Part shown: positions 34,310-61,041 of the stretch, one piece after another
How positions within the stretch are numbered: position 1 is the stretch's first letter
Layout of the letters: each line of letters begins with the position of its first letter
NCBI RefSeq assembly: GCF_030063475.1
Contig: NZ_JASIRT010000012.1
Span: 1-64,000 of the forward strand
Reading direction: 5' to 3'
Source: Roseomonas sp. E05
Lineage (GTDB): Bacteria > Pseudomonadota > Alphaproteobacteria > Acetobacterales > Acetobacteraceae
DNA length: 64,000 bases
Translations under genes and position numbers: made by a program
Notes under the pieces: model-generated
Databases searched by the model: none
Told to the model about the DNA's origin: nothing
What the model saw: the letters and a program-made list of their open reading frames with translations, nothing else

Positions 34310-34412
34310 GCCGGCATGAACACCTGCCGGCGCCAGGCGTTCCCGGAATGCGGCGGCTGCATGATTCGCGAAGTGGCGGTTAAGAAACGCTTAACCGCAT
34401 GGCCTCACCATC

Positions 34413-50288: not shown

Positions 50289-51127
50289 GGCCGGCCGGCG
50301 CATCTTGGGGAGGGGGCGGCGCTTGGCGGTGCTGCCCCGTCCGGATCATGGTGAAGGAGGCACGGCCTCCCGCCTTCGGGTAGGCACCGGCCTGTGGGGG
50401 CCGGCCCCGTCGAGGGGGGCGGCGGATGGTGGTGCAAACGATCATCCCGCCTGCCCGGCTGCGGAAGAACGCGTCCTCCGTGCTGTGTTGCCTTCAGGCC
50501 ACACTGCCGCCGAGCGGCAGAGAGCTTCCCCGTCTCCGGCCCTGATACGGATCCGGCCTCTCGCCCGCCGCCGTAAGGCGCATACCGCAAATGAGAGAAA
50601 CCGCAGGTTTCCCCAAAAAAAGATCATGCGCCCCCTCGCGGCGGGATCTGCTCACGGAACGAGAATAGGGTCGTATCCTGGAATGCCCCTGCGCGCGCCT
50701 ATCTCCGCCTTGCCGATGCAGGCGTGCCCTGCGCCGGACAGGCAGAGAAGCCCTTATAATCCATGCAGGTGAATGAAATGTGACCGAATTTCTGCCTCCG
50801 AGGCATTCTGGCAGGGAGCTGCAAACCGGCTGACTTCAACCATGGGTCTGGCGACCGTGCGCCGAGCGCGAAACAAAATCGCATATTTGGATGACGTCTA
50901 AAAATTGTACTAATCAGTCTTCAAATGGAGATTGTATCCTCAATCAAAATGACATCACTGTTGGAAGACCAGATATCCAAAAAGAATATCCTGTCTGGGG
51001 AAAAGTGCCCTGTTCTTTCAACCATGATGAGAATGTCTTGAGTATCACGGATCCGTGAGGTAGCTTTTCCTTGCCAGCGCCAAGAGGCTCTGACTTTCAC
51101 CGCCAGCGAAAATCGCAAGGACGGGCC
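50289..51127. other. Long non-coding stretch with an AT-rich island
   Basis: About 840 bases between the M81 peptidase gene and the CtrA-like gene. The first 300 are GC-rich with loose inverted repeats (for example GGGGGCCGGCCCC near 50395). From about 50740 to 51065 the base composition drops well below the surrounding level, with A/T-rich words such as CTAAAAATTGTACTAATCAG. No frame in it has homology-like features. It probably contains the regulator's promoter; it may also host a small RNA or be a relic of foreign DNA. A frame for 61 residues on the minus strand at 50699-50884 looks spurious. Confidence 0.45.
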
Positions 51128-51907
51128 ATGTACATTCTCCTCGCCAGCACCTTCGAGGATAACGCGCGGTTGCGGGACAGCCTTGTCCAAAAAGGACATG
51201 GCTGCGACCTCGCCCTCCCCTTCAGCGAGACCGCCGCGATCGCACAGCACAGCGGACCCTATGATGTGATCCTGCTCGAGGTGGATGAGATCCGCCTGCA
51301 GGCGCTCGCCATTCTGCGGGACATCCGGCGTCGCGGTGTGCAGGCGCCCGTCATTGTCCTGAGCGCTTCCCCCACGCATGACGAGGAACTGGCGGCACTG
51401 GAACTTGGCGCCGATGATGTGCTGAGCCGCGCTGCTCCCCTGGCGCTGCTGCATGCGCGGATGCAGGCCGTGCTGCGCCGCGGCTTCGGCCATGCCAGCT
51501 CCCAGCTCCGCTGCGGCAATGTGGTGCTGGATCAGACCCGCCGCACCGTCGCGGTCGATGATCGTTCCGTTCGTGTCACCTGCCGCGAGTTCGACGTGCT
51601 GGAGATGCTGATGCTGCGGCGGGGCACGCTGCTCACCAAGGAGCATTTCATGGCGCGTTCCTATGGTGCGGAGGACGGGCCGGACCAGCGCATCCTGGAC
51701 GTGTTCGTCTGCAAGCTGCGCCGCAAGCTGGCGGCCGCCGGCTCGGCCGAGATCGTGCGCACCATCTGGGGGCGCGGCTATGTGCTGGAGGAGCCGACCC
51801 CCTCCGCCCTGGAGGCCGCACGGATGCGCCATCAGGCCGCCGCGCCCCGGACGCGGCGGGCCCATCTCGGCCTCGGAATGGAGGGCGGGCTGGCCATGGC
51901 CGTCTGA
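51128..51907 (+). CDS. CtrA-like response regulator with a degenerate receiver (Glu51)
   Basis: A 259-residue protein. The C-terminal winged helix (about 125-225) closely follows CtrA: VTCREFDVLEMLMLRRGTLL, TKEHFMARSYGAEDG, ILDVFVCKLRRKL and IWGRGYVLEEP. The receiver domain (1-118) aligns without gaps around position 51, where the phospho-acceptor Asp of CtrA is Glu (YDVILLEVDE; codon GAG at 51278-51280). The acidic pair of the active site (EDD in CtrA) is missing (LASTFED), and the conserved Lys of TKPF is also lost (DDVLSRAAP). So it cannot be phosphorylated normally and may be constitutively active. It lies after an AT-rich region and before a strong terminator. Confidence 0.88.
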   Translation: MYILLASTFEDNARLRDSLVQKGHGCDLALPFSETAAIAQHSGPYDVILLEVDEIRLQALAILRDIRRRGVQAPVIVLSASPTHDEELAALELGADDVLSRAAPLALLHARMQAVLRRGFGHASSQLRCGNVVLDQTRRTVAVDDRSVRVTCREFDVLEMLMLRRGTLLTKEHFMARSYGAEDGPDQRILDVFVCKLRRKLAAAGSAEIVRTIWGRGYVLEEPTPSALEAARMRHQAAAPRTRRAHLGLGMEGGLAMAV

Positions 51908-51952: not shown

Positions 51953-51990
51953 GCGCCGGCCTTCTCCGCCCGGAGGAGGCCGGCGCTTCT
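51953..51990 (+). terminator. Intrinsic terminator after the CtrA-like gene
   Basis: A hairpin with a perfect 10-bp outer stem (GCGCCGGCCT at 51953-51962 and its complement at 51977-51986), extended inside by TCTCC/GGAGG, is followed by TTCTTTTC. It lies 45 bases after the stop codon. Confidence 0.8.
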
Positions 51991-52080
51991 TTTCTCTCCG
52001 CCTCACCGCCATGTGCCGCCACAGCCCGCCCGCGGGGGTCGCCGCGCCGGTTGAGCGTCGGCCGGACATGCCCGAGGCTT

Positions 52081-52170
52081 CGGCTCCTTCGGCTCCTTCG
52101 GCTCCTTCGGCTCCTTCGGCTCCTTCGGCTCCTTCGGCTCCTTCGGCTCCTTCGGCTCCTTCGGCTCCTT
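52081..52170 (+). repeat. Minisatellite: ten perfect copies of CGGCTCCTT
   Basis: Ten identical 9-bp units (CGGCTCCTT) run without any mismatch from 52081 to 52170, in the gap before the semialdehyde dehydrogenase gene. The unit length is a multiple of three, and a frame from ATG 52011 would read it as Ser-Ala-Pro repeats, but that frame has no other support. Such perfect arrays change copy number by slippage. Confidence 0.9.
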
Positions 52171-52316
52171 CGCGATCCGCAGCCGCGCATCGCGGTGAGG
52201 GGCGGCGCGCCTCGCCGGCCGCTCTTGCTCCCTCTGCCGAAAGCCTGTCCTATGACATCAGACAAGTGCGGCATGGTCCGAAGTGGCTTGCCGCCTGAAC
52301 GATGAGGAACGACCGC

Positions 52317-60543: not shown

Positions 60544-61041
60544 CTATTCCTTTGCCGGCTCCGGTGCCCCGCGCTCCCGGAAGGCGCCGCCCGCCAGCGG
60601 GTAGGCGGTGGTGTGCTTGATCCGCTCCATGGCGAATCGCGAGGTGACGTCGCGCATCGGTACGGCCTCCACCAGGCGGCGGTAGAAGGTGTCGAAGGCC
60701 GCCATGTCGGCCACCGCGACACGCAGCATGTAATCGACCTCGCCGGCCATGCGGTAGACCTCCATCACCTCCGGCATGGCTTCCACCGCGGCGCGGAAGC
60801 GCGCCATCCAGGCCGGGCTGTGCTCGCCCGCCTCGATGGCGACAAAGACATGCAGGCCGAGCCCCACCGCCTCGGGCGAGACCAGCGCCACGCGCCGGGC
60901 GATGACGCCCGCCGCCTCCAGCTTCTGCACCCGCTTCCAGCAGGGGGTGGGGGAGAGCCCCACCCGGTCGGCGAGCTGGGCGATGGAGAGGGTGGCGTCC
61001 TCCTGCAGCAGGGTGAGCAGCCGGCGGTCGATATCGTCCAT
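60544..61041 (-). CDS. Lrp/AsnC-family regulator
   Basis: A 165-residue regulator. An N-terminal winged helix (DDIDRRLLTLLQEDATLSIA, ADRVGLSPTPCWKRVQKLE) joins a RAM effector-binding domain (LGLHVFVAIEAGEHSPAWMA, EVYRMAGEVDYMLRVAV). LSPTPCWKRV is the recognition helix typical of the family. It could bind an amino acid and control neighbouring genes: the ssu-type operon downstream and the kinase gene divergent upstream. ATG 61041 begins the family's domain; an earlier ATG in frame has no homology. Confidence 0.92.
   Translation of the reverse strand: MDDIDRRLLTLLQEDATLSIAQLADRVGLSPTPCWKRVQKLEAAGVIARRVALVSPEAVGLGLHVFVAIEAGEHSPAWMARFRAAVEAMPEVMEVYRMAGEVDYMLRVAVADMAAFDTFYRRLVEAVPMRDVTSRFAMERIKHTTAYPLAGGAFRERGAPEPAKE

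Follow-up and report, generated by a model that had tools for sequence, protein, structure and literature searches.

A CtrA-derived regulator with a degenerate receiver in Roseomonas sp. E05, encoded within a second flagellar gene set in some of its relatives

CtrA serves as a model for regulation by phosphorylation, and in Caulobacter the D51E replacement of its phospho-acceptor aspartate activates the protein. A locus in a stretch of 64,000 nucleotides from Roseomonas sp. E05 (hereafter the window) raises the question of what a CtrA-like regulator does when glutamate occupies this position naturally. An earlier note on this DNA had proposed that the glutamate is a phosphomimetic, making the protein a constitutively active relative of CtrA.

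The gene lies on the forward strand at 51128..51907 and encodes a protein of 259 residues followed by a stop codon, which Pfam, NCBIfam and the family tree place as a CtrA-family paralogue with a degenerate receiver. Pfam recognizes the Trans_reg_C domain with 64.8 bits and the Response_reg domain with 30.0 bits, slightly below the cut-off of 30.2. The top NCBIfam model is that of CtrA (NF045991; 8.2e-50), with a score of 169.6 bits that falls below the 350-bit cut-off of a model which, going by its name, was curated for another order. The same genome (G000) encodes a canonical CtrA (G000:C8:92885-93553) that scores 368.9 bits and exceeds this cut-off, so that the second, canonical copy for which the earlier note had advised a search does exist. 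When the two proteins are aligned, Glu51 of the paralogue, encoded by the GAG codon at 51278..51280 (forward strand) in the context YDVILLE, falls in the column of Asp51, the CtrA phospho-acceptor, while E7, D8 and D9 of CtrA are replaced by Ser, Thr and Phe and K101 by Arg; the acceptor position and the loss of the acidic pair and the lysine are as originally read. The alignment had also been described as gap-free up to the acceptor: the column is right, but MAFFT inserts one compensating gap pair before residue 51, and the N-terminal match is weak, with 12 identities in the first 61 columns. The degenerate receiver (residues 1-120, boundary approximate; 51128..51487, forward strand) is identical to that of the genome's CtrA at 32 of 120 positions, and the OmpR-type DNA-binding domain (residues 124-223, boundary approximate; 51497..51796, forward strand) at 49 of 100; in a BLASTP comparison with S. 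meliloti CtrA the match begins at residue 45 and reaches 42% identity over 189 columns. An AlphaFold2 model of moderate confidence (mean pLDDT 68.8) predicts that the receiver keeps five beta-alpha units with Glu51 at the end of strand 3, and the top Foldseek matches of the model are OmpR/PhoB-type regulators. Judged by Asp51, the acidic pair and Lys101, the protein falls outside CtrA (E51, S7/T8, R101); judged by a receiver fold that lacks the acceptor aspartate and the other active-site residues, it belongs with the aspartate-less or pseudo-receiver regulators.

The recognition helix (DVF-I/V-CKLR-K/R-KL) and wing (T-V/I-WGRGY), which we take to be the base-reading parts in the OmpR-type family, match those of CtrA and have no counterpart in 13 further regulators of OmpR type compared from the same genome (the wing of one of these, L032, being uncovered); by these elements the protein would be classed with CtrA. 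Within the family, mean pairwise identity is 0.70 for the DNA-binding domain versus 0.44 for the receiver. Between G000 and G005 the dN/dS ratio (Nei-Gojobori, own script) is 0.05 for the DNA-binding domain, 0.13 for the receiver and 0.12 overall, which indicates that the gene is under purifying selection in these two genomes. At the level of sequence, the DNA-binding domain keeps the DNA-reading residues of CtrA, and we infer that the family proteins bind CtrA-type boxes. The receiver might instead dock CckA or ChpT and dampen the phosphorelay, in the manner of Osp, a response-regulator-like protein that is reported to inhibit CckA in Rhodobacter sphaeroides (PMC9430884), and the predicted retention of the receiver fold would suit such a role. 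We consider this quite improbable: Osp is a single-domain protein, and conservation in the present family resides mainly in the DNA-binding domain.

Orthologues of the window gene are present in seven of 17 genomes of the genus (57-100% identity). Across the bacterial family, 37 of 397 genomes have a match at E <= 1e-45, 31 of them at <= 7.1e-55; of the six weaker matches, those of G098, G160 and G259 group with CtrA in the tree, and those of G161, G204 and G288 were set aside. In a draw from the class, the window's own genome was the only one of 385 to match at 1e-48, none of the other 384 doing so. Of the fifteen named loci found, the seven that belong to the family come from Pseudoroseomonas and Roseomonas. 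A tree of 60 rows (L118_G381q, L090_G110 and L059_G012p omitted for their long branches; L003 and L004 entered as L022 and L023; L065-L068 being duplicates of L038, L041, L039 and L040) recovers the family clade (34 rows) with support of 100/99 and the CtrA clade (12 rows) with 100/98, joins the two with 98/95, and leaves S. meliloti Rem and the other regulators outside. The kinship with CtrA that had been claimed extends beyond the helix-turn-helix, the window protein lying not inside the CtrA clade but in its sister; in a 50-row tree with fewer outgroups, support for the family clade (35 rows) is only 85/63. The window protein belongs to a Glu51 clade (G000, G005, P. oryzae and P. vastitatis; support 99/95), whose sister clade (G013, G015, G006 and G004) has Asp51 together with the same pocket losses and is 67-69% identical to the window protein.

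Some genomes contain additional relatives. G396 (L109 5814-6590 and 15238-16014) and G208 (L119 14768-15544 and 5697-6512) each carry two family copies about 9 kb apart; the Glu51 copy of G396 is preceded by a PAS histidine kinase gene (Pfam), and a gene of the same cluster is found there in G208. G381 encodes one more relative of strongly diverged sequence (L118 1572-2318), transcribed away from the family gene and of unsure tree position. In G012 (L059, G012:C9) a second CtrA-like protein with Gly51 and Ala101 falls on the CtrA side of the tree.

Across 35 family sequences (a set without G381q, G012p, the CtrA-side rows and G385, which has an internal stop), position 51 takes eight states: Arg in 12, Glu in seven, Asp in six, Gln and Ser in three each, Val in two, and Leu and Ala in one each. 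An acidic residue is found at position 7 in none and at position 8 in 11 of the 35; Lys101 is kept in none, and Phe98 of CtrA has become Val or Leu in all. As read from the alignment of the whole family, the receiver of the window protein is devoid of the residues for normal phosphorylation. That Glu51 is a natural phosphomimetic locking the protein in an active, CtrA-like state might be argued from its sharing by four species, from its reappearance in G381 and in one of the two copies of G208 and of G396, and from the activation of Caulobacter CtrA by D51E. Glutamate is also the commonest residue at the acceptor site of aspartate-less receivers (PMC4395418, PMC12632262), and a review of pseudo-receivers presents it as an attractive source of activity, perhaps via the conserved Thr and Lys, that was disproved in some cases (PMC12632262). 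ChxR, for its part, is reported to have retained DNA binding after its glutamate was changed (PMC4395418). Because the acceptor varies through eight states and the partner residues are missing, Lys101 from every sequence, Glu51 is disfavoured as a source of activity, and the sister clade has Asp in the same degenerate pocket. We therefore find the weight that had been given to Glu51 as a phosphomimetic unsupported and such a role unlikely; the variation suggests that Glu51 is one of several tolerated residues. The earlier note had named, as refuting its reading, orthologues with Asp that would make Glu a strain-specific error. Part of this is observed: close relatives do have Asp, yet Glu51 is common to four species and is not such an error.

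Control of the window protein by its level, as the earlier note had proposed, is plausible. Directly 5' of the start, at 51106..51122 (forward strand), lies a conserved leader, GCGAAAATCGC, followed by the Shine-Dalgarno-like AAGGAC. The leader stands at this place in 12 of the 33 family genes inspected, nine of which have AAGGA after it; among the loci inspected, its 12-base form, GCGAAAATCGCA, is confined to genes of this kind, and a 16-base form has a single mismatch-free occurrence in the genome. A stable hairpin in the leader was considered and rejected: the predicted fold of 51080-51160 is no more stable than that of shuffled sequences (z 0.16), and the stem is invariant among the motif-bearing genes, so that covariation is uninformative. 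Further upstream, at 51045..51058, the palindrome TCACG-GATC-CGTGA may be an operator; the form TCACG-N4-CGTGA is found 5' of the gene in all four members of the Glu51 clade. A strict sigma-70 scan found no promoter. Downstream, a terminator-like hairpin of 15 pairs followed by a T-rich tail is located at 51953..51986 (forward strand), one of three such sites in the window against 1.1 expected from shuffles. Also 3' of the gene, a perfect 9-base tandem repeat (CTTCGGCTC) of 10.6 copies spans 52078-52172, before the next ORF at 52302.

We called genes in 33 stretches with our own simple gene caller and counted 27 neighbourhoods, the CtrA-side L122, L128, L129, L133 and L134 being excluded and L110 giving no call. 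In seven of the 27 (G013, G004, G002, G006, G015, G396 and G208) motA lies 3' of the regulator with other flagellar genes beside it. Within the genus, the regulator gene is inside a second flagellar system in five of 17 genomes, between fliX (or a small gene) and motB-motA. The order in G013, G004 and G002 is flgI, rod-binding gene, small gene, fliO, fliP, EAL gene, flgK, flgL, lytic transglycosylase gene (on the opposite strand), fliX or small gene, regulator, motB and motA. Pfam confirmed FlgI, the rod-binding protein, FliP, EAL, FlgK, SLT, MotB, MotA, FliF, FlgD and an FlgE-type protein among the neighbours, with FliO barely below the cut-off; the FliX slot holds one clear FliX, one below the cut-off and two small genes without a match. 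A flbT-type gene adjoins the regulator in four of the 27 neighbourhoods (FlbT being confirmed by Pfam in P. oryzae), and no flagellar gene was recognized in 16, the window included, where few neighbours were Pfam-checked. Neither in the window nor in G005 does the regulator lie within a flagellar gene cluster. G005 and P. vastitatis have four further neighbouring genes in common (79-89% identity), which suggests that their regulator occupies a common place outside such a cluster. A transglycosylase gene is near the regulator in 14 loci. In nine of these, all outside flagellar clusters (L111, L112, L113, L114, L116, L117, L120, L130 and L131), molybdopterin oxidoreductase and lytic transglycosylase genes flank the regulator on opposite sides (Pfam on representatives).

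The FlhA linked to the regulator and the other FlhA type are 49-52% identical over full-length genes. Typing, which left out G001, G007-G009, G011, G014 and G016, found both types in G003, G004, G006 and G015, one whole gene plus fragments in G013, the linked type only in G002 and no FlhA match in G012. An apparent absence of the regulator from the second system of G003 carries no weight, since 2837 N fill the relevant place between flgL and motB. G000 and its nearest relative, G005, each have a single FlhA, of the non-linked type; G000 is therefore without the second flagellar system, yet keeps the regulator. Over the bacterial family, FlhA is found in 30 of 31 genomes with the regulator versus 285 of 366 others, and two FlhA matches in 10 of 31 versus 22 of 366, where split genes can count twice; counted across genomes regardless of kinship, this co-occurrence is suggestive only. 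G297 (L071), which has the regulator and no FlhA match, is a case against a strict tie between the two. With the linked FlhA type absent from G000 and G005 and the gene solitary in both, it might be a relic decaying after the loss of the second system. We regard this as very improbable, given the open frame, the dN/dS of 0.12 between the two genomes and the retention of the leader and palindrome.

The CtrA consensus is TTAA-N7-TTAA. In 123,559 bases of the second system we found 10 such boxes with at most one mismatch, against means of 1.7 at 12 other spacings and 0.1 in Markov shuffles; the ten represent five positions in related genomes and are hence not independent. A box precedes fliF in G004 and G006, where the gene was called, and in G013 and G015, where the assignment is by sequence; the others lie 5' of the fliO gene (two), the EAL gene (two) and flgK (one), with one further box. 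The other flagellar type has 2 boxes in 166,764 bases, no excess over other spacings. These boxes would point to a CtrA-type factor, be it CtrA or its paralogue, and could belong to canonical CtrA alone. Genome-wide, G000 has no box enrichment (exact, 5 versus 4; at most one mismatch, 51 versus 106 for the reversed pattern), and as read by eye the genes beside its five exact boxes are not flagellar. One of these five is at 34380-34394 of the window, between divergently oriented genes. The flagellar contig C25 of G000 has two overlapping near-boxes at 60923-60948, with no gene start called within 300 bases. Autoregulation through a CtrA box was rejected, as no box within one mismatch occurs near the regulator gene in L001 (G000) or L038 (G005).

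Another idea is that the protein is a general modulator of the CtrA regulon, binding canonical CtrA sites genome-wide and competing with or helping CtrA, its flagellar position being incidental. Such a modulator would account for a recognition helix and wing identical in type to those of CtrA, for the presence of canonical CtrA in the genome, and for the 20 of 27 neighbourhoods outside the flagellar structural cluster. It would leave unexplained why two subgroups keep the gene next to motB-motA or flbT, and why boxes are enriched in the linked flagellar system and not in the other type. We consider it rather unlikely.

We give a probability of about one half to the following reading: a duplicate of CtrA acquired a switch-free receiver, retained CtrA-type DNA reading, took on a role with a second flagellum in relatives, and is kept here for other sites or another task. 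Following the duplication, the receiver would have lost its phosphorylation residues while the DNA-binding domain kept those that read DNA. In relatives the regulator probably serves the second flagellar system that houses its gene, the position being directly observed and the control presumed. Its activity would need no phosphorylation and would depend on the amount of the protein or on a partner, as has been reported for rhizobial Rem. In the Glu51 lineage the gene lies outside the second-system cluster. Because G000 and G005 are without the second system while the gene is under purifying selection, it may act there at other CtrA-type sites or in a new task. We counted for this reading the box enrichment in the second system, the flagellar neighbourhoods, the distinct FlhA type linked to the gene, the support of the 60-row tree, the CtrA-type helix and wing, the higher conservation and low dN/dS of the DNA-binding domain and the degeneration of the receiver; against it we counted the 16 of 27 non-flagellar neighbourhoods, G297, the unenriched boxes of G000, the lack of any near the gene, the mutual dependence of the ten boxes and their possible assignment to canonical CtrA, and the 85/63 tree. 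The gene looks less like a purposeful, always-on mutant than like a copy of CtrA that lost its switch and became a regulator tied to the flagellum. Only tentatively do we entertain the fuller version, in which the duplicate shed the phosphorelay and became a dedicated, level-set regulator of the second flagellum with its own conserved leader (Rem independently reinvented from another parent), outlived that system here and still reads CtrA-type sites, the relatives forming a natural mutational series in which activity is independent of the acceptor.

The link to the second flagellar system in relatives goes beyond the earlier note. In the open-licence literature on Roseomonas and Acetobacteraceae CtrA, flagellar clusters and pseudo-receivers, titles and the beginnings of abstracts carry no earlier description of the family. 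A 2025 review (PMC12632262) describes the on-off switching of pseudo-receivers as a mystery. A CtrA-derived family that has kept the DNA-reading residues and lost the switch, with eight natural acceptor residues and a clear flagellar setting in some relatives, allows two questions to be put to the test: does the residue at the acceptor site matter in a pseudo-receiver, and how are sites shared out between two regulators whose DNA-reading helices are the same?

Among known systems, CtrA is the sister clade and shares the recognition helix, wing and OmpR-type architecture; the window family differs in having lost the acidic pair, Lys101 and Phe98, in having Asp51 in only six of 35 sequences, and in the window protein scoring below the NF045991 cut-off. 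ChxR, RitR and HP1043 likewise have a receiver fold without phosphorylation residues, ChxR with Glu at the acceptor (PMC4395418, PMC12632262), whereas the window family is CtrA-derived and its acceptor drifts among D, E, Q, S, R, V, L and A within one family. The fla2 genes of Rhodobacter/Cereibacter sphaeroides are reported as a second flagellar set under CtrA-type control (PMC6180460, PMC11999139); there the regulator is CtrA itself, whereas in relatives of the window gene a CtrA paralogue lies inside the cluster. Rem, of Sinorhizobium and Agrobacterium, is an OmpR-type, aspartate-less flagellar activator reported to be active without phosphorylation (PMC9812332). In S. meliloti, rem has a transglycosylase gene on one side and flgE-flgK on the other, with motB nearby; a related arrangement is reported for ActR, which adjoins mltE and motB (PMC8639532). 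Some relatives of the window gene share with Rem the OmpR-type build, the switch-less receiver and a flagellar neighbourhood with lytic transglycosylase and motB genes. By sequence the window protein is no orthologue of S. meliloti Rem, the protein compared from the Rem/FtcR group: it matches Rem at 28% over 126 residues versus CtrA at 42% over 189, and Rem branches outside the clade that joins CtrA with the family and differs in its recognition helix. The window gene is a CtrA-derived pseudo-receiver regulator, flagellum-linked in some relatives and free-standing here; by analogy it would be closest to Rem in its working, its DNA binding, independence of phosphorylation and function being presumed, and in ancestry it is sister to CtrA.
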